Below, piece by piece: positions 596 through 45,029 of a stretch of DNA of 64,000 nt. A program made the position numbers and the translations under genes. Below the pieces are notes generated by a model that was not told the origin of the DNA, did not search any database, and was given only the letters and a program-made list of their open reading frames with translations. The stretch's first letter is position 1; every line of letters begins with the position of its first letter. The stretch comes from an uncultured bacterium (GTDB lineage: Bacteria; Patescibacteriota; Saccharimonadia; Saccharimonadales; Saccharimonadaceae), in assembly GCA_903952435.1 (NCBI GenBank), contig CAJBFN010000002.1, positions 81,507 through 145,506 on the forward strand, given 5' to 3'.

Positions 596-3211
596 ATGGC
601 AAGCAAACATAAGGTTCTGACCAAGATATTTGGCGATCCACAATTGAAATTATTAAAGGGCCTCCAAAAAAAGGTTGCGGCGATTAACGCGTTGTCTGAT
701 AAATATAAAAAGATGACCAAGCCGGAGTTAAAAAAACAAACTGAAGTGTTAAAGAAAAGATTACAGAAAAAAAGCGTAACACTTGACACTATCTTGCCAG
801 ATGCATTTGCATTAGTTCGTGAATCAAGTGAACGAGTATTAAAGATGCGTCATTTTGATGTCCAGTTGATTGGCGGTATGGCCTTGCACGAAGGTAATGT
901 CGCCGAGATGAAGACTGGTGAAGGTAAGACTTTAGTAGCTACGCTACCAGTTTATTTAAACGCATTGACCGGTGAAGGTGTGCATGTTGTTACAGTCAAT
1001 GATTATCTGGCGCAACGTGACGCTTGTTGGATGGGTGAAGTTTATAATTTTTTGGGTTTGCAAGTTGGTGTAATCATCAATGAAGCGTCTTTTGTTTATG
1101 ATCCTAGTTTTGATAACGAAGATCATAAAGATGAACGATTAAGGCACTTAAAGCCTGCGACCAGGAAAGAAGCCTATGCGGCTGATGTCACTTATGGTAC
1201 AAATAATGAATTTGGGTTTGATTATTTGCGCGATAACATGGTTAATGAAGTTGATTTATTGCGCCAACGCAAACTAAATTTTGCGATTGTTGACGAGGTT
1301 GACAGTATCTTGATTGATGAAGCTAGGACGCCGCTAATTATTAGTGCTCCAGCAGCTGAAAACCCTGATAGTTATTATCAGTTTGCTAAAATTGCCGCAA
1401 AATTAACACCTGATGATTATATTATGGACGAAAAGCATCGCACAGTTTCATTAAGTGATGAAGGGACTGAAAAAATTCAAAAAATGCTGGGTGTCAAAAA
1501 TCTTTACAGCCCTGATCATGTTCGCTCGGTTTATCATATGGATCAAGCTTTGCGTGCTCAGACGTTATTCCGACGCGACAAAGATTATGTTGTTACTAAA
1601 AATGGCGAAGTTGTGATTGTTGATGAATTTACCGGCCGTTTGATGAATGGTCGGCGCTATAATGAAGGGCTGCACCAAGCAATCGAAGCTAAAGAGGCTG
1701 TTCCAGTTTTGCAAGAGAGTATGACGCTGGCGACGATTTCTTTCCAAAACTATTTCCGTTTGTATAAAAAGTTGTCTGGTATGACAGGTACGGCATTCAC
1801 CGAGGCTGAAGAATTTCAACAAATTTATAGTTTGGACGTTATTCAAATTCCGGCTAATCGTCCAATTTGTCGCGATGACAAACAAGATTTAATTTTTAAA
1901 ACCGAAACAGCCAAATTAAAGGCAATTGTTAAGTCAATTTCCGAATATCAAAAGCAAGGTCGCCCAGTTTTAGTTGGTTCGGCTTCAATTGCTAAAAATG
2001 AGCTGATTGCTTCGTGGTTAGATAAGGAAAAAGTGCCTTACGAAATTTTGAATGCTAAAAATAATGAACGTGAGGCGGCAATTATTGAAAAAGCAGGCCA
2101 AAAAGGTTCAATTACATTGGCTACAAATATGGCTGGTCGCGGTACTGACATTAAACTTGGTGAAGGCGTAGTTGAACTGGGTGGATTGGTCGTTATTGGT
2201 TCAGAGCGACACGAATCACGCCGAATTGATAATCAATTGCGTGGTCGTGGTGGTCGTCAAGGCGATCCAGGTGAAACTCAATTTTACGTCTCGACCGAAG
2301 ATGATTTGATGCGAATTTTCCAGGGCGATAGGATTGCAAGTTTGATGGATCGGTTGGGAATTGATGAAGACATACCAATCCAAAATAAGGCAGTTTCAAA
2401 AACTCTGGAATCAGCTCAAAAACGAGTTGAAGGCTTCAACTTTGATACTCGCAAAAATGTCGTTCAATATGACAATGTTATTAATCGCCATCGTCGAGTT
2501 GTCTATACGATGCGTCGCAAGATTTTAGAGGGTAGTGATATCAAGCCAGAAGTTGAATTATTAATTCAATCAAAGCTTCGCGAGTTAACGGCGCTTCCTT
2601 CCAAAAATAACAAACATTTTGATGAGCAATTTAATCAAGTGTTCCCGATTGACGCTGGTAAATTAGAAGTTATCGGAAAAGAAAAGAATGATAAAAAACG
2701 ATTTGAATTGGCGTTAAAAGCAGCTGATCGGCTTTATGGCGAAAAAGAGAAAGAGCTTGGTGAGGAAATTATTCGCAAAGTTGAACGCGAAGTTTATTTG
2801 CAAGTTTTAGATACGCTTTGGATGCAACATCTTGAAAATATGCAACATTTGCGCGAGGGTATTCATTGGCGCAGTGTTGGTCAGCGCGATCCATTAGTTG
2901 AATATCGAAGCGAATCGCAAAAATTATTTGATAGTTTACAAGCAACCTTGCGCGACGAAGTTATACGCGCAGTGATGAGCGTTCATCGAAACGATGTTAT
3001 CGCCAAAGAAGATGAAGAATATGAAACCGAATTGACTAAATTAGCTGAAAACGCTGTAGAGAAAGGTGTTAATGAGGTAACTGGTGGCACAGCAAATCGA
3101 GATAAGGACTTTAAGGTTAAGAAAGAGCATGCAGATGTTAATAAAAAGAAGAATGACGCTCGCAAAAAGAAAAAACTTGAAAGAAAAAACCGTAAAAATA
3201 GGCGCAAATAA
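596..3211 (+). CDS. secA: Preprotein translocase ATPase SecA
   Basis: 871 aa, MKTGEGKTLVATLPVYLNAL, DEVDSILIDEARTPLIIS, AGRGTDIKLG, GRGGRQGDPGETQFYVS motifs. Confidence 0.98.
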   Translation: MASKHKVLTKIFGDPQLKLLKGLQKKVAAINALSDKYKKMTKPELKKQTEVLKKRLQKKSVTLDTILPDAFALVRESSERVLKMRHFDVQLIGGMALHEGNVAEMKTGEGKTLVATLPVYLNALTGEGVHVVTVNDYLAQRDACWMGEVYNFLGLQVGVIINEASFVYDPSFDNEDHKDERLRHLKPATRKEAYAADVTYGTNNEFGFDYLRDNMVNEVDLLRQRKLNFAIVDEVDSILIDEARTPLIISAPAAENPDSYYQFAKIAAKLTPDDYIMDEKHRTVSLSDEGTEKIQKMLGVKNLYSPDHVRSVYHMDQALRAQTLFRRDKDYVVTKNGEVVIVDEFTGRLMNGRRYNEGLHQAIEAKEAVPVLQESMTLATISFQNYFRLYKKLSGMTGTAFTEAEEFQQIYSLDVIQIPANRPICRDDKQDLIFKTETAKLKAIVKSISEYQKQGRPVLVGSASIAKNELIASWLDKEKVPYEILNAKNNEREAAIIEKAGQKGSITLATNMAGRGTDIKLGEGVVELGGLVVIGSERHESRRIDNQLRGRGGRQGDPGETQFYVSTEDDLMRIFQGDRIASLMDRLGIDEDIPIQNKAVSKTLESAQKRVEGFNFDTRKNVVQYDNVINRHRRVVYTMRRKILEGSDIKPEVELLIQSKLRELTALPSKNNKHFDEQFNQVFPIDAGKLEVIGKEKNDKKRFELALKAADRLYGEKEKELGEEIIRKVEREVYLQVLDTLWMQHLENMQHLREGIHWRSVGQRDPLVEYRSESQKLFDSLQATLRDEVIRAVMSVHRNDVIAKEDEEYETELTKLAENAVEKGVNEVTGGTANRDKDFKVKKEHADVNKKKNDARKKKKLERKNRKNRRK

Positions 3212-4497
3212 TGAAACATGCTGTATCAGAAATTAAACTAAAAAATGGTGCCCGCGGACTACTAATCGATGTGCCTGGCGCAACTACCGTCAGCATGCAA
3301 TTCCAATTTAGGGCCGGTAATCGATATGCCAAGTCTAAAGATATTGAACAGGTTGCTCATATTATGGAGCATATGGCTTTTGGCGCTAATGCTAGGTTTA
3401 AAGACGAGCAAGATTTTGAGTTTGAGTTTACTAAAAACGGTGCTTATCGAAATGCCTATACTAGTGATTTATCAATGTTCTATGAAGCCGATTGTGCTGA
3501 TTTTGAATGGGATAGGATTTTAGATTTACAACAGTTGGCAATTTGCCAGCCAAGATTTAATGAGGAAGAATTAGCGGCCGAAAAAGGCAATGTTAGGTCC
3601 GAATTAACAAATTATTTAAACGATCATCACCGAATATTATGGCCCAAGATTCAGCAATTAATAGGTGAGGATGTTTTAACTTATCGACAATCTTTATCTA
3701 CTATTAGTGATATAACCGTAGCTGATATTCGTGAACATCACAAGAGGACTCACACAACTGACAATATGAGGTTTGTGATTGCCGGTAAATTAAAGGGTCG
3801 TAAATCTCAAATTCGAAGAATCATGGAAAGTTTTCAATTGCCAAGGGGCGAGAGGTTTGAAGTTCCATATGATACATTAACCAAGTCTAATCCTAGTATT
3901 GTTCGTCGTAAAGATGCTACTAACCTGACATTTGGCTTGTTTTTGGCTATCCCAGAAGTTTTGCCGGATGAAGAAATAGATGCCATGCATTATTTGAACC
4001 ATATCTTGACTGGGACTATGCATTCGCGTATTTTCGGTGCTGCGCGCAAAAAAGGCTTGGCCTACAATGTGAGCGCTTATGCTGCTACTGGTTTTTATGA
4101 CAGTGGTTGGGATATATCTGGGCAGGTTAATCACGAAGCCGCTAATGAGTTATTTGATATTATTGCTCGTGAAATCAATCATGTCCTAAAGGGTAAAATT
4201 AGCGAAAAAGAGGTTGAGGCCGCGAAATCATTCGCGTTAGGACGCTATCAGATGGGCGCTCAAACTGTCTCGCAGATCAGTGGATTTTATACTGGTAGAT
4301 ATTTTGCCGATGGTTTTATAAAAAACTATGAAAAAGTGCCAGATATGATAAAAAATGTAACGACTGAACGAATGGTCGAGACGGCACGGAAGTTTATCAA
4401 AAGCGATACCTGGGTATTAGCTGCGGTTAGTAGTGGCGAACGACAAGAGATTGTAGATTTAAGTGATAAAATAGCAAAATTATTTAATCAAGAGTAA
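3211..4497 (+). CDS. M16 (insulinase/pitrilysin-like) peptidase
   Basis: HIMEHMAFGA variant of the HxxEH motif; M16 layout. Confidence 0.85.
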   Translation: MKHAVSEIKLKNGARGLLIDVPGATTVSMQFQFRAGNRYAKSKDIEQVAHIMEHMAFGANARFKDEQDFEFEFTKNGAYRNAYTSDLSMFYEADCADFEWDRILDLQQLAICQPRFNEEELAAEKGNVRSELTNYLNDHHRILWPKIQQLIGEDVLTYRQSLSTISDITVADIREHHKRTHTTDNMRFVIAGKLKGRKSQIRRIMESFQLPRGERFEVPYDTLTKSNPSIVRRKDATNLTFGLFLAIPEVLPDEEIDAMHYLNHILTGTMHSRIFGAARKKGLAYNVSAYAATGFYDSGWDISGQVNHEAANELFDIIAREINHVLKGKISEKEVEAAKSFALGRYQMGAQTVSQISGFYTGRYFADGFIKNYEKVPDMIKNVTTERMVETARKFIKSDTWVLAAVSSGERQEIVDLSDKIAKLFNQE

Positions 4498-4507
4498 GCG
4501 AGGTTAT

Positions 4508-5788
4508 ATGAAAATTGCAATCGCGGGTTATGGTCTAGAAGGTGAATCAAACTATAATTATTGGTCAATTGACGAAAGCAATGATGTAACGATAGTCGAC
4601 CAAAAAAAACCAGAAAGAGATCTGCCTGGCGACGCCAAAACTCTTATTGGTGAAAATGTTATGGAGAATTTGGCTGATTTTGATATTGTTGTGCGCACGG
4701 CAGGACTGGCGCCATATAAAATTAAAACTAATGGCAAAATTTGGTCGGCAACTAATGAATTTTTTGATAAGTGTCCAGCGCCGATAATTGGCGTGACTGG
4801 CAGTAAAGGTAAGGGCACAACAGCCAGCTTAATTGCAAGCATATTGGAGCGATCTGGACGAAATGTTTGGTTGCTGGGAAATATTGGCAAACCACCACTT
4901 GATGTTTTGGGTGATATTCAACAAAGTGACATTGTTGTTTATGAACTGTCTAGTTTTCAACTGTGGGATCTTGAAAAATCACCTCATATTGCGGTAGTTT
5001 TGTTTATCGAGCAAGAGCATCAAAATGTCCATACTAGTATGGAAGATTATGTTATGGCTAAAGCTAATGTGACTAAATATCAAAACGAAGGTGATATTTT
5101 AATTTATAATCAGTCAAATCAGTATGCTAAGTTTATCGCCGATGGTTCAAGGGCTCAACTAATAGGCTATACTGATCTATCTACTGCTCATGTTTCGGAT
5201 GGTAATTTTTACTATGGAGAACAAGTAATTTGTTCAGTTGATGTCTTAAAACTTATTGGGAAACATAATCAAGACAACGCCTGTGCAGCGATTGATGCTG
5301 CTTGGCATTTTACTCAAGATACCGGTGTTATATCTAGTGGTTTGTCGGCTTTCTCCGGTTTACCGCATCGACTAAGCTTTGTTAAAGATGTTGATGGCGT
5401 TAAATATTACGATGATAGTATTGCAACAACACCTAATGCGGCGATTGCGGCACTAAAATCATTCAAGGACCCAAAAGTTATTATTTTGGGAGGCTCATCT
5501 AAGGGCGGTGATTTTAGCGAGATGGCTGTTGAATTAAAAAACCAAGATGTAACGGCTATATTGATTGGCAGTGAGGCTGAAAATATTGCTAATTCTTGCA
5601 AGGCAGCCGGCTTTGATGGTTTTGAAATTATGGAAAATTCAACTATGAAACAAATTGTCGATAAAGCTAAAAGTATGTCAAAGTCGGGTGGCGTTGTTTT
5701 GCTTAGTCCAGCTTGTGCATCATTCGGAATGTTTAAAGATTATGCAGATCGAGGTGATCAGTTTCAAGCAGCTGTTATGGCGCTTTAA
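4508..5788 (+). CDS. murD: UDP-N-acetylmuramoylalanine--D-glutamate ligase
   Basis: GVTGSKGKGTTASLI P-loop, YELSSFQLW, KYYDDSIATTPNAAIAAL, LLSPACASFGMFKDYADRGDQF. Confidence 0.92.
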   Translation: MKIAIAGYGLEGESNYNYWSIDESNDVTIVDQKKPERDLPGDAKTLIGENVMENLADFDIVVRTAGLAPYKIKTNGKIWSATNEFFDKCPAPIIGVTGSKGKGTTASLIASILERSGRNVWLLGNIGKPPLDVLGDIQQSDIVVYELSSFQLWDLEKSPHIAVVLFIEQEHQNVHTSMEDYVMAKANVTKYQNEGDILIYNQSNQYAKFIADGSRAQLIGYTDLSTAHVSDGNFYYGEQVICSVDVLKLIGKHNQDNACAAIDAAWHFTQDTGVISSGLSAFSGLPHRLSFVKDVDGVKYYDDSIATTPNAAIAALKSFKDPKVIILGGSSKGGDFSEMAVELKNQDVTAILIGSEAENIANSCKAAGFDGFEIMENSTMKQIVDKAKSMSKSGGVVLLSPACASFGMFKDYADRGDQFQAAVMAL

Positions 5789-11691: not shown

Positions 11692-11763
11692 TTGGATGAC
11701 TCCTTAAAAATTTATAATAAAATCTAATTAACTATACCAAATATAGGGGTTAGCGTCAAGGTT

Positions 11764-12936
11764 TTAGGCGCGAATTAAAACCAATAATTTACGAGCAACA
11801 ATTTGGTCTTCACGGTAATACAAAAGGTCATTTTGCGATACGTTATAAAATTCGTGTATTTTATAGCCCAGCCGAGCGATAGTTGAGGTTAGCGGTAGGT
11901 GGGTGAATTGTCCGTTTTTACTACGCCAAGCTGGCACGGCCAAACAAATTGGTGTGCCGGTCTTTATTTGCGGTGCTAGATTCTTCAAAAACTCATCAAT
12001 AATATGGTCGCAATTTTTTACTACTTCATCTAATTTAACAGGTGATGGAGGTGCACTGAATGGCTGTCCCAAGTAGGTTTCGCAAACAATGGCGTCGATA
12101 GGTTGTTGCCATTTTGTTGTCATGGCATCACCTTCATGCAAATACCAATCGAAAACCTTATTGTGACTATCAGCTAACCAATTAAGGTTTTCGCGACTGT
12201 AGCGAACCATTTTTTCAGCTAAATCTGTGCCATAGACGGCAAAACCTAGTAGGGCTGCTTCTTGTAATATTACGCCGGTGCCGCAAAATGGATCCAGGAT
12301 TCTTTTTTCTTGATTTTTGCTGGCGAGGCCGGTTAAATTAACCATTATCTGGGCAAGTTTTGGCGGCAACATTCCAACAAAGGCATCGCGTTTTGGTCGG
12401 CCTTGATCGCGTTTGGCATAGGCGGTGATATTTTGGGCGCCGGTACTTTCGGCGATTATAACTCGGCCATTATTACCTTTAATAATTAATAATTCGACTT
12501 TGTTCGGTGACAAACCAAGTTTATTATGATGACTGACGGCGCTATTTAGGGCCGAGTCGGTATTTGGAATTAATCGCAAACTGATGCCGTATTTTTTTAA
12601 TTTTTGTTTTAAGATAATGCCAGTTTTTTGGACTTCTCGTGGGCTAATAGCACAGTTGTAGGTGCTAATCCCAAGGGTGATTTTGCCGTCAAATTTCGAC
12701 CACTCGCTCATATAAAAACTAACTATTTTTTGGCTAATTTGGTGCCAGTCGCTTCTGGGAAGTTCCATAATAACTCTGCCGGCTTTTGGTGTGCCGCCAA
12801 GATCTTGAACTTCAAAATTTTCAGTTTCGATAGTTGCTGTCTGGTCCGAAAATAGATTAACGGATTTTCCGCCAAAAACTTGTTCTAACTCGGCGATCCC
12901 AATGGCCGGCTGTCGTCCTAAAATTGCAATATACAT
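11764..12936 (-). CDS. TRM11-like SAM-dependent (tRNA guanine-N2?) methyltransferase
   Basis: RILDPFCGTGVILQEAALLGFAVYGTDL; DAIVCETYLGQP catalytic-like motif. Confidence 0.75.
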   Translation of the reverse strand: MYIAILGRQPAIGIAELEQVFGGKSVNLFSDQTATIETENFEVQDLGGTPKAGRVIMELPRSDWHQISQKIVSFYMSEWSKFDGKITLGISTYNCAISPREVQKTGIILKQKLKKYGISLRLIPNTDSALNSAVSHHNKLGLSPNKVELLIIKGNNGRVIIAESTGAQNITAYAKRDQGRPKRDAFVGMLPPKLAQIMVNLTGLASKNQEKRILDPFCGTGVILQEAALLGFAVYGTDLAEKMVRYSRENLNWLADSHNKVFDWYLHEGDAMTTKWQQPIDAIVCETYLGQPFSAPPSPVKLDEVVKNCDHIIDEFLKNLAPQIKTGTPICLAVPAWRSKNGQFTHLPLTSTIARLGYKIHEFYNVSQNDLLYYREDQIVARKLLVLIRA

Positions 12937-24861: not shown

Positions 24862-24938
24862 TGGGCATGAAAATATAAATTGGGTATTGTAGTGGGTAAA
24901 AATGGGTAGTATAGTTAACTCAGTGGAAAAAAGTGGGT
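24862..24938 (+). promoter_or_regulatory. mraZ promoter with MraZ-box-like TGGGT repeats
   Basis: TGGGC/TGGGT at 24862, 24881, 24893, 24903, 24934 and TGGAA at 24924; TTGTAG(24887)-17 nt-TATAGT(24910). Confidence 0.75.
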
Positions 24939-25010
24939 AATACCACCAAAAAAACAAACACCACTAATATTAAAAAAATAAACTAAACGGGGCCAAGAGA
25001 AAAACTAACC

Positions 25011-25382
25011 ATGGCAAGTGTAGATTATTTTGAACGAAAGCTTGACGATAAGCGTCGTTTAACTATACCTACCGAAGTTCGAAGTGAACTTGCCAGCGGA
25101 GTAGTGATAACTCGTGGCTTTGGCCAGTATTTGCATCTTTATCCTAAACAAGTTTGGGATAGGGAAGTCGAATCAGCACTGGGCGGCAATATTCTTGATG
25201 AGAAGACGGCCGATCTGAATGTGCGATTTCGAATGGGCAAAACCGAGGCGGAACTTGACCAAAAACAAGGTCGAGTTACAATCGAGCAACATTTGCTTGA
25301 TTACGCTGGTATTGACCGCGAACTGGTTGCTGTAAGGGCAGGCGCATATTGGCGCATTCTGGCGCCCAAAGCTGACGTTTAG
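25011..25382 (+). CDS. mraZ: Transcriptional regulator MraZ
   Basis: YFERKLDDKRRLTIPTEVRSEL...FGQYLHLYPKQVWD; upstream of rsmH. Confidence 0.9.
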   Translation: MASVDYFERKLDDKRRLTIPTEVRSELASGVVITRGFGQYLHLYPKQVWDREVESALGGNILDEKTADLNVRFRMGKTEAELDQKQGRVTIEQHLLDYAGIDRELVAVRAGAYWRILAPKADV

Positions 25383-25437
25383 AAAAAACAATCCGAATCG
25401 TTCTTTAACAATTAATGTAAATTAAGGACAAAAACTC

Positions 25438-25674
25438 TCGAGATCAACTATCTGGTAGTCAGGCAGTGGGCTACGAAACCACATTAAAAAATTCGCGCAC
25501 CTTATTCAAAAAACACACCTCCCAAATAAACTCCACCTCACACATAAGTCTCTCAACCGAATAATTTAAGCAATATGATTTACTTTTTTGGTAACCATGC
25601 TGATTATTCGGAAACTTATCAAAAACAAACACATGCGAAAACAAACAGCTTTACTACCAGTTAGGTGATCTCGA
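25438..25674 (+). ncRNA. Candidate structured RNA / leader between mraZ and rsmH
   Basis: TCGAGATCAACTATCTGGTAG (25438-25458) pairs with CTACCAGTTAGGTGATCTCGA (25654-25674); inner perfect CCGAATAAT/ATTATTCGG at 25557-25565/25603-25611. Confidence 0.55.
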
Positions 25675-25704
25675 AAATCGAACCTTATGTTATCATAAGA
25701 GTCG

Positions 25705-26601
25705 ATGAGTATAACAGAACATCCACCACAAATTCTACATGTTCCAGTCTTGCTAGATTCAACACTTGAATTACTGCAACCGCAAAAAGGCGAGAATTAT
25801 CTTGACCTAACTGCTGGTTACGGTGGTCACGCTAGTCGAATCTTGGAAGTAACTGGCAATTACGCTGAATCGGTTTTGGTTGATCGTGACGATTACGCTT
25901 TGGGGCGTTTAAAATCATTATCGGACAAAGGCGCTAGGCTATTGCATACTGATTTTGCTGCTGCTGCAAAGCAACTGGCAGATGAAGGGCAAAAATTTGA
26001 TCTTGTATTAGTTGATTTGGGGGTGTCATCACCACAGCTCGATCAGAGCGACCGAGGGTTTTCCTTTACAAATAGTGGTCCGCTAGATATGCGAATGGAT
26101 AGAGGTCAAGAGTTAACGGCTGAGAAATTGGTCAATACTGCTTCGGCTGATAAACTAGCGCATATCATCAGTCAATATGGCGAAGAGCCAATTGGACTGG
26201 CAAAATCAATTGCCTTGGCAATTGTGAATAACAGGCCATTATACACAACAGGCGAACTAGCCGATCTGATAAAGCAAAATTATCGTGGCAAATGGAAGAA
26301 AATTCATCCGGCTACGCGTACCTTTCAAGCAATCCGCATAGCAGTCAACGACGAGTTAAAACAAATCGAAGATATGCTGCCGCTACTGCCGAAACTTTTA
26401 AAAAAGAATGGGCGAGTAGGGGTGATTAGTTTTCATAGTCTAGAGGACCGACTTATCAAAAGATATTTTAAAGATCAATTTGATAACGGGCTAGAGGCAG
26501 AATTACTACCAATAACTAAAAAGCCAATTGCGGGCAACCTAAATGACGTTCACAACCCGCGATCTCGTAGTGCAAAATTACGAGTCGCAGTGAAAAAATA
26601 A
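25705..26601 (+). CDS. rsmH: 16S rRNA (cytosine(1402)-N4)-methyltransferase
   Basis: HVPVLLDSTLELLQPQKGENYLDLTAGYGGHASRIL, DLGVSSPQLDQSDRGFSF, ISFHSLEDRLIKRYF. Confidence 0.97.
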   Translation: MSITEHPPQILHVPVLLDSTLELLQPQKGENYLDLTAGYGGHASRILEVTGNYAESVLVDRDDYALGRLKSLSDKGARLLHTDFAAAAKQLADEGQKFDLVLVDLGVSSPQLDQSDRGFSFTNSGPLDMRMDRGQELTAEKLVNTASADKLAHIISQYGEEPIGLAKSIALAIVNNRPLYTTGELADLIKQNYRGKWKKIHPATRTFQAIRIAVNDELKQIEDMLPLLPKLLKKNGRVGVISFHSLEDRLIKRYFKDQFDNGLEAELLPITKKPIAGNLNDVHNPRSRSAKLRVAVKK

Positions 26602-26632: not shown

Positions 26633-26698
26633 ATGCCAATTCACATCCCAGTACAGTGCACCGACACTCCACAGATTGTCGCTGTCAGAATCAAGTAA
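26633..26698 (+). CDS. Small ORF, 21 aa (MPIHIPVQCTDTPQIVAVRIK)
   Basis: AAGAAAGGG RBS-like sequence upstream; followed by a perfect 12-bp hairpin. Confidence 0.45.
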   Translation: MPIHIPVQCTDTPQIVAVRIK

Positions 26699-26709
26699 AT
26701 AGCTTTTAA

Positions 26710-26739
26710 CTTTAGCCCCTGCTTCTACAGGGGCTAAAG
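26710..26739 (+). promoter_or_regulatory. Strong hairpin downstream of small ORF
   Basis: CTTTAGCCCCTG cttcta CAGGGGCTAAAG; no U-tract directly after. Confidence 0.75.
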
Positions 26740-26787
26740 GGCTAGGTCTATAAAATTAAATAAACATAAATAGAAATTAAAATAAAA

Positions 26788-42990: not shown

Positions 42991-43560
42991 TTACTCTGAA
43001 ATTTTGAGACTGGTTGGCTTTAGGTTATTCTTACAAAATTGTTCAACAATTTCGATAACTTGTGGAATTATTATATCTTTTAATTTTTCGGATTCTTCAG
43101 TATTAAATTTTCCTAATACAAAATTAGTATCGTCAATTATCTTAGATTGTTCGTTGCTGATGCCAATTCGGATTCGGGTATAATTTGGATTAATTGTAAA
43201 ATTAAGTGATTTAATACCGTTATTGCCGCCATCGCCACCTTGTTGACGAATTCGAAGCGCTCCTATTGGTAATGCTAGGTCATCATGTATAACTAATAAG
43301 TCGGCCGATTGGTCAATCTTGTAGAAATCAATGAATTTGCGGGCGGCTTTGCCGGTTTCATTATAGAAAGTTTTTGGTTTTACTAATAATACTTTTTCAT
43401 TTTCGATTGTAATCTCGGACAAAAATGCGTAGAATTTTGGTTTATCTAGCCATTCGCCGTTGAATTTCTCAGCTAAACTGTTAAGGGCTAAAAATCCGAC
43501 ATTATGACGTGATCCAGTGTATTCTGGTTCTGGGTTACCCTGGGCTAAAATAATTTTCAT
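42991..43560 (-). CDS. pth: Peptidyl-tRNA hydrolase
   Basis: ILAQGNPEPEYTGSRHNVGFLAL, KPKTFYNETGKAARKF, VIHDDLALPIGALRIRQQGGDGGNNGIKS. Confidence 0.95.
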   Translation of the reverse strand: MKIILAQGNPEPEYTGSRHNVGFLALNSLAEKFNGEWLDKPKFYAFLSEITIENEKVLLVKPKTFYNETGKAARKFIDFYKIDQSADLLVIHDDLALPIGALRIRQQGGDGGNNGIKSLNFTINPNYTRIRIGISNEQSKIIDDTNFVLGKFNTEESEKLKDIIIPQVIEIVEQFCKNNLKPTSLKISE

Positions 43561-45029
43561 TATTTGCCTTTCTTTATCTTGACGGGTCCTGTCGGTCGGT
43601 CTGCCCCTGATTTTCGAACCGCTTTGGGGCGTTTCGCAAAATCGAGTGCTGCCCCGCCAACCGCCACCCGTGGCTTGCTGTTATCAAGCGCCTCTTTGGC
43701 GCGATTTGCCTTTATTTGGTTTTCGTCACGGAAACTGAATTTGATTGGCGTTCCAGTGTAATCGTAAGTTTCGCGTAATTGCTTTTCGAGATAGCGTTTA
43801 TAGCTCCAGTGAAGGAACGTTAGTTTTGATCCATAAATTACAAACCAAGGAGGTGTTGTGTCGGTTTGAACCATATAACGCAACTTTGGATGGGTATTTT
43901 TTAGTCCGGCTGGTGGATGAAATTGAACGCTTTTCTGTAGTAAATCATTTAATACGCGGGTTTTAGTAGTTTGTTTGCGTCTGGCATCAATATCTAGGGC
44001 CAGATCAAATAATTTAGTGACGTTTTGACCAGTTACGGCACTGGTAAAAATGAGTGGTGCCCAAGGCGTAAAGTCGAAAGTCCGGCTAATTTTTGGTGCC
44101 AATGCGTCGCGAGTATAGGCGTCTTTTCCTTCGACGCTGTCCCATTTTGTGACTACAATTGCCATGCCTTTGCCTGCTTCGTCAATAATGCCAGCGATTC
44201 GCTGGTCTAACTGGGTGTTTAATTCGTTAGCGTCCATTAGTAAGAAACAAATATCCGATTCTTCAATAGCCGCAAGTGTTCGTAGTACGCTAAATTTTTC
44301 AATGCCGACTTCTTGTTTGCCTGGCTTGCGCATACCAGCCGTATCAAGTAATTGAATATCTCTTCCGCCGTATTTGATATCGATGCGGTTAACATCGCGG
44401 GTAGTACCGGCGATATTAGCGACAATCGCCTGTTGCTTGCCGGCCAAGGTGTTAAACAGATAGCTTTTGCCGACATTTGGGCGGCCGATTAGTGAAACGC
44501 GCAAGATTTCGTCTGGTTCGTCTTCGCTTTTGGCTGGGATTAGGTCTATGATGCTGTCTAGGGCGTCTGTTATGCCAAAGTTGTGCTCGGCACTGGTGCG
44601 AATAATCTCTTTGATTCCAAGGCGTTTAAACTCGTCTAGTGGCAAGCTTTCTTTTAGGTCGGCTTTGTTTGCCAATAAAATTACTGGCTTTTTGCTGCGC
44701 AAGGCTTTTTTAGCAACAAAACGATCTTGGTCGCTGGCATATTGGCTACTGTCGACGACGACTAATATTACGTCGGCCGATTCAGCGGCTTCAGTGATTT
44801 GATCTTGGATAGAGGCTTCAAATTCGTCACTAGCATCCTTCAATCCAGCAGTATCAACTAGCCAGAATTGATGATGGCGATATTCGACGCGACCTAAAAC
44901 ATTATCACGAGTTGTGCCGGCTTCACGGGCAACAATTGCCTGTTGTGAGCGCACCATACGGTTAAAAAGCGAACTTTTGCCGACGTTCGCCTGACCGATG
45001 ATTGCAACTGTTGGTAATTTTGAGGCCAT
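43560..45029 (-). CDS. der: Ribosome biogenesis GTPase Der
   Basis: Two G domains (GQANVGKSSLFN; GRPNVGKSYLFN), KH-like C-term. Confidence 0.97.
   Translation of the reverse strand: MASKLPTVAIIGQANVGKSSLFNRMVRSQQAIVAREAGTTRDNVLGRVEYRHHQFWLVDTAGLKDASDEFEASIQDQITEAAESADVILVVVDSSQYASDQDRFVAKKALRSKKPVILLANKADLKESLPLDEFKRLGIKEIIRTSAEHNFGITDALDSIIDLIPAKSEDEPDEILRVSLIGRPNVGKSYLFNTLAGKQQAIVANIAGTTRDVNRIDIKYGGRDIQLLDTAGMRKPGKQEVGIEKFSVLRTLAAIEESDICFLLMDANELNTQLDQRIAGIIDEAGKGMAIVVTKWDSVEGKDAYTRDALAPKISRTFDFTPWAPLIFTSAVTGQNVTKLFDLALDIDARRKQTTKTRVLNDLLQKSVQFHPPAGLKNTHPKLRYMVQTDTTPPWFVIYGSKLTFLHWSYKRYLEKQLRETYDYTGTPIKFSFRDENQIKANRAKEALDNSKPRVAVGGAALDFAKRPKAVRKSGADRPTGPVKIKKGK

Follow-up and report, generated by a model that had tools for sequence, protein, structure and literature searches.

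We analysed a 64,000-nt stretch of DNA (the window) in which mraZ, ending at 25382, and rsmH (mraW), starting at 25705, carry the Pfam domains MraZ and MraW methylase and are separated by a long spacer (25383-25704). An initial annotation had reported a 21-bp inverted repeat with two mismatches in this spacer and proposed a cis-regulatory RNA or a processing site. The repeat is real: its arms (25438-25458 and 25654-25674) are complementary, enclose 195 nt and are interrupted by an A.G mismatch at 25447/25665 and a U.U mismatch at 25451/25661. The stem, here called P1, extends to 24 pairs with both mismatches conserved, and a repeat search carried the arms to 30 nt at 83%. The inner 9-bp repeat reported with it was likewise recovered (CCGAATAAT at 25557-25565, ATTATTCGG at 25603-25611) and sits within a further hairpin, P3. 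The spacer has a predicted folding energy of -68.65 kcal/mol (z = -5.98), which none of 100 shuffled sequences equalled, and the element is present as a single copy in the window's genome. The features are collected in Table 1.

Table 1. Features of the mraZ-rsmH spacer and its flanking genes, with positions in the window
Feature	Position	Strand	Remarks
mraZ	25011..25382	+	Upstream neighbour; not found 5' of the RNA in ~13 related loci
boxA-like rRNA antitermination motif GTTCTTTAACAATTAA	25400..25415	+	Statistics versus shuffles
P1, 5' arm	25438..25463	+	24 pairs; 25447 and 25451 are conserved mismatches; covariation
P2 hairpin GUGG/CCAC	25466..25482	+	Partner-swap control
M1 GCACCUU	25497..25503	+	Single-stranded; alignments A1, A2
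M2 ACACCUCCC	25515..25523	+	Single-stranded; holds anti-SD CACCUCC
M3 AAACUCCACCUCAC	25528..25541	+	Most conserved block
M4 CAUAAGUCUCUC	25543..25554	+	Conserved; truncated in phage copies L236, L238
P3 hairpin, variable sequence	25557..25611	+	Anchored-stem score
M5/M6 A-rich single strand CAAAAACAAACACA..GAAAACAAACA	25620..25647	+	Also in phage copies L249, L310
P1, 3' arm	25649..25674	+	Covariation
Extended -10 (TG-TTATCAT), near-leaderless rsmH promoter	25688..25696	+	Just outside P1; family-conserved TGnTATAnT
rsmH (mraW)	25705..26601	+	Downstream neighbour; in every chromosomal locus with room to see

Two further features were seen in the flanks. Upstream of mraZ (24880-24945), GTGGGTA and TGGGTA boxes are repeated, which we take to resemble MraZ binding sites. 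Between rsmH and the next gene (26634-26740), a tiny conserved ORF, MPIHIPVQCTDTPQIVAVRIK, is followed by a GC-rich hairpin, AGCCCCTGCTTCTACAGGGGCT. The peptide of this ORF is kept in about 40 relatives of the family, and the ORF and hairpin are possibly a leader peptide with an attenuator or a small protein.

Comparison of P1 among 68 relatives showed that 95.5% of the alignment cells were paired, compared with 82.2 ± 0.5% in shuffles, and none of 500 shuffles matched this value. Changes on both sides were found in 23 of the 24 pairs, and covariation reached 0.537, compared with 0.273 ± 0.009 in shuffles and at most 0.173 in slid versions. The complementarity of the arms, on which the annotation had staked its proposal, is thus conserved in these relatives. 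Because G-U cells (174) far outnumber A-C cells (23) in the P1 alignment, we assign the RNA to the + strand. An inverted repeat by itself is no proof of an RNA, and the spacer could also be read as a DNA-level element, such as a mobile element, a recombination site or a protein-binding palindrome. However, this asymmetry between wobble pairs, together with covariation, including that of the pseudoknot described below, refutes such a reading in practice; the single genomic copy and the fixed location also speak against it, and we regard its probability as negligible.

Inside P1 lies a core whose organization had escaped the annotation, as had the boxA motif and the phage copies considered below. 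The loop CGAA of hairpin P2 (25474-25477) pairs with UUCG (25492-25495) in the segment before M1, forming an H-type pseudoknot. This pairing scored 11.53, compared with 9.57 ± 0.28 when partners were swapped between genomes (maximum of 500, 10.58), and the anchored-stem score of P3 was 12.05 compared with 9.15 ± 0.33 under such swapping. Single-stranded motifs (GCACCUU, ACACCUCCC, AAACUCCACCUCAC, CAUAAGUCUCUC and ACAAAAACAAA) are near-invariant across 89 genomes, and M1, M2 and M3 each contain an unpaired CACCU, which is complementary to Shine-Dalgarno (SD) sequences. M3 extends to the remaining orders of the class and to every phage copy; M2 is lost in those orders. Some loci carry extra lineage-specific hairpins between the motifs (e.g. 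L043, L070, L089 and the phage locus L249), which leave the motifs undisturbed, and a seemingly permuted copy (L017) is due only to scaffold gaps (N runs). The core has no shared reading frame, since the lengths of its A runs differ between genomes by non-multiples of three.

Of 89 relatives, 64 have a sequence matching CTTTAACA with at most one mismatch in the 75 nt that precede P1, compared with 4.0 in shuffles. A similar boxA, CCTTTAACAATTT, is found in the genome's own 16S leader, and a NusB gene was found in 19 of 21 relatives. As a separate observation, the 16S leaders of the window's own genus (L250; L223-L226, L230, L231) have a CAACGTGGAGTTG hairpin, boxA and GTGCAAATCATCGTCAGTTT in common, and the GTGGA loop of the 16S-leader hairpin is complementary to UCCAC in M3, probably by chance.

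On the other side of the element, a TATAAT-like -10 sequence lies at -18 to -5 of the rsmH start in 41 of 87 loci (7.7 in shuffles); the -10 of the window itself was not listed by a consensus promoter scan. In the window's family (f1), rsmH often has its own near-leaderless promoter 3' of the element, and this also holds for genus g2, in which mraZ was not found and TATAAT stands directly before rsmH. The mraZ-less loci of g2 have a promoter-like TTGCAT..CATAAAAT 5' of the element, and on sequence grounds the chromosomal copy appears to have a promoter-like site of its own in loci that lack mraZ and in no others. Outside family f1, no obvious promoter was seen between P1 and rsmH, so that co-transcription with rsmH is likely there. 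No terminator-like platform was found after P1 in the window. Many other genes of the window, e.g. at 11763-12936(-), 12987, 18470 and 43559-45029(-), also have a TATAAT-like -10 at their start codon, which suggests widespread leaderless mRNAs.

A DNA search found the element in 89 of 99 related genomes. Of ~90 loci fetched for comparison, nearly all have it between mraZ and rsmH; in eight, mraZ was not found in the fetched flank and the element is still directly 5' of rsmH. The rsmH gene follows 126-404 nt downstream of the core wherever the contig allows, and, contig ends aside, every exact-core chromosomal locus checked is an mraZ/rsmH locus. At least 119 stretches of a named collection contain an exact 23-mer from the core; among the matches listed, the titles refer to Saccharibacteria or to unclassified or Patescibacteria MAGs, with one labelled Chloroflexi. 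A sequence-only model (R1) matched 142 of 195 sampled genomes of the class Saccharimonadia. The divergent genus g2 scored low with this model, yet the g2 loci inspected do carry the element, as do the other orders of the class. Outside the class, no credible match was obtained in ~340 other Patescibacteria, nor in a sample of 379 genomes of the phylum: the weak R1 matches (G143, G398) had neither the neighbour genes nor any more of the element. One further hit (G033:C38, L094) was a chance match. Plasmids searched for the core gave no match. As far as tested, the RNA appears to be restricted to one bacterial class, phage copies aside.

Exact and gapped core patterns also recovered nine IMG/VR loci without mraZ or rsmH nearby (L216, L217, L218, L219, L236 with its near-twin L237, L238, L240, L242 and L249), the absence of both genes being assessed with tblastn in L216-L219 and judged from ORF lists in the remaining loci. 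Ten proteins tested, from eight of the nine loci, belong to terminase, portal, major head, endolysin, primase and exonuclease families. The window core matched a single one of 50,697 annotated phage records, that of the complete phage MW202692.1 (E = 2e-8). Its unit of ~150-170 nt comprises a hairpin, GCACCTT, AACACCTCCC, AAACTCCACCTCAC, AATAAGTCTCTC, A-rich motifs and a terminator-like hairpin, and part of it is annotated in the record as a hypothetical ORF. The phage units keep most of M1-M4 (L218 is without M2) and in some cases M5, and all have dropped P1; no clear boxA was seen in them, and the phage loci gave no Rfam match either. The core that they share with the chromosomal element suggests that these phages probably infect Saccharibacteria.

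Judged from their sequence, several phage units look like transcription units of their own, with promoter-like and terminator-like flanks. Promoter-like sites lie 5' on the RNA strand in L217, L218 and L240, a -10-like TGGTATAATG is found upstream in L216 and L236, and a hairpin and then a T run follow the unit in L217, L240, L242 and L249. In L249 the unit comes after the major head gene, and a hairpin with TTTTTT behind it forms its end. The terminators of some units are bidirectional or were not detected by the scan.

Several other observations concern the phage loci. The RNA adjoins endolysin or lysis-type genes in L218, L219, L238, L249 and L310. A hairpin near the core has a common apical loop around CCTCGCA in L216, L236, L242 and L249, and L219 and L238 have a common loop, GGTCGAACA; both loop types may be extra functional motifs. 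L240 encodes an HTH-DUF5753 regulator and a HATPase_c_2 protein (2826-4911), typical of Actinobacteria, on which Saccharibacteria live, and its host is uncertain because of the DUF5753 regulator. Loose-pattern phage matches (L239, L243-L248, L293, L294) were rejected, as they are without this anatomy and several fall within coding sequence. A search for prophage copies in Saccharibacteria gave terminase relatives in 13 of 392 genomes, but no RNA core in the fetched flanks.

Our preferred reading, which we hold to be rather probable, is that the spacer encodes on its + strand a structured non-coding RNA of ~240 nt, representing a novel class of RNA in Saccharimonadia, whose core is trans-acting and is also encoded by phages. 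The separate gene-like units in phage genomes suggest that the RNA probably acts on its own and not as a local switch. The annotation was right about a structured RNA, which is now strongly supported, and its processing site is plausible for P1, whereas cis control is not the best reading, because phages carry the invariant single-stranded motifs away from mraZ/rsmH and because rsmH has a -10 at its start codon 3' of the element in f1 and g2. As a cis leader of rsmH or the division cluster, the RNA would sense a ligand, a protein or the state of the ribosome and control read-through or translation. The constant position directly 5' of rsmH, even where mraZ was not found, fits such a role, as do the likely co-transcription outside f1 and a boxA that would allow read-through. 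In addition, M2 seems to resemble the RsmH target region of 16S rRNA (ACACACCUCCC versus ACACACCGCCC). However, the leader would have to be reconciled with phage copies that have no rsmH, with the near-leaderless rsmH promoters beyond the element, with a core-rsmH distance that varies from 126 to 404 nt, with the missing terminator-like platform after P1 in the window, and with conserved letters that lie in single strands instead of a compact aptamer. We consider it unlikely as the main function. Nevertheless, in no genome seen is the chromosomal copy separated from rsmH, which would be expected of a cis element and is a counterpoint to action in trans; since this association is complete in the chromosomal loci examined, an additional cis effect is possible.

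For the trans-acting RNA, we propose the following mechanism. On the chromosome, transcription of the RNA would accompany or follow that of mraZ; in loci that lack mraZ, it would start at a promoter belonging to the RNA itself. The boxA, with NusB, would help RNA polymerase to cross the long untranslated stretch, boxA being known to shield such stretches from Rho (PMC4807359). P1 would resemble the leader-trailer helix of rRNA, a type of helix cut by RNase III (PMC10250234), and would either let the core be cut out or insulate it. The core would then work in trans by offering its fixed single-stranded motifs to a partner, for which the translation machinery is, with low confidence, the likeliest candidate. 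Because M1-M3 each carry CACCU, the core of the anti-SD, the RNA could be a decoy or mimic of the 16S tail or a multi-site antisense RNA, and the stripped-down phage copies would supply or disturb the same activity. This anti-SD role of the CACCU copies is suggestive only. SD-like sequences precede only 17% of the starts in the window, compared with 5% in shuffles, leaderless-looking genes are numerous, and the duplex energies of the core with 54 of the window's gene starts were no better than shuffled. Global SD targeting was rejected, as there was no enrichment at these 54 starts; a role as an rRNA guide was also rejected, as the longest complementarity, 10 bp with G-U, was not striking and seemingly within the range of chance. 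We offer only tentatively the full proposal that this class-wide RNA acts in trans on translation by mimicking the 16S 3' tail, and that minimal phage copies hijack or block it. If true, phages would be mimicking a host RNA, and the RNA concerned would be a non-coding one shared by the whole class.

The same features could be arranged differently, as a miniature mimic of pre-16S rRNA in which boxA, a helix of >17 bp and CACCUCC tails titrate 16S maturation factors (Nus/SuhB, RNase III, Era, RsmH) and thereby tune rsmH or ribosome assembly. The order of boxA, long helix, CACCU motifs and closing helix is that of pre-16S, the boxA of the genome's own 16S leader is alike, the neighbour rsmH encodes a 16S methyltransferase, and roles of leader-trailer helices and boxA are described in PMC10250234. 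Yet the phage copies are without P1 and a clear boxA, M2 has disappeared from the remaining orders of the class, and we noticed nothing else that looks like 16S, which makes this mimic quite improbable. Even less probable, in our estimation, is a divergent housekeeping RNA, 6S or SRP RNA, missed by the Rfam models. Neither 6S nor small SRP RNA was detected in the window's genome, and the long closing stem with an open interior recalls 6S, but covariance models of 6S (RF00013) and SRP RNA gave no match in the spacer, there was no Rfam match at E 5, and the pseudoknot, the invariant C/A-rich single strands and the copies in diverse phages do not fit. RNase P RNA was found elsewhere in the genome, as was tmRNA (RF00023; G000:C2:8342-8747), which we had considered for its pseudoknot and open strand.

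The near invariance of the letters across a whole bacterial class suggests that the RNA likely does something central. Cultivated Saccharibacteria are epibionts on Actinobacteria (PMC10633639). Given their tiny genomes, epibiont life, many leaderless-looking genes and the lack of a detectable Hfq, a core RNA not described before could have a key regulatory role. Its functional part is delimited by the minimal phage copies, which also suggest exploitation of the RNA by phages. Since cultured, transformable Saccharibacteria exist (PMC10633639), the RNA is directly testable.

None of 4227 Rfam families matched the spacer, whether the gathering threshold or a limit of E 5 was applied, and the open literature covered by our search describes no such RNA of Saccharibacteria; subscription papers and supplements may hold an earlier prediction. 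On these grounds the RNA class appears to be new, a statement that concerns the class and not the mechanism. Its closest counterpart by location is the mraW RNA motif of Actinomycetales (RF01746; PMC2864571), likewise structured and upstream of mraW/rsmH. The annotation had called that motif unrelated, and we agree: it belongs to another phylum and does not match in sequence or in structure, even at E 5, and the present RNA combines an outer stem and a pseudoknot with long unpaired stretches of invariant sequence and is found by itself in phages. With boxA-led rRNA units closed by leader-trailer helices (PMC10250234, PMC4807359), it shares the arrangement of a boxA and, 3' of it, a long helix enclosing a large RNA, and M2 has CACCUCC in common with the 16S 3' end. 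In contrast to these units, it measures only ~240 nt, has no rRNA homology that we could find, and exists in phage copies without the long helix or a clear boxA. Trans-acting sRNAs with anti-SD (CCUCC) loops, e.g. those of Rhizobiales (PMC3927594), are also structured RNAs with unpaired anti-SD-like motifs, whereas here the motifs are flanked by invariant sequence and placed in long open strands, not in short hairpin loops. An Hfq-type sRNA was rejected, as Hfq was not found in 21 genomes. GOLLD and ROOL are large structured non-coding RNAs that occur in both bacteria and phages and whose function is not obvious. Compared with them, the present RNA is much smaller and, as far as tested, belongs to one bacterial class.
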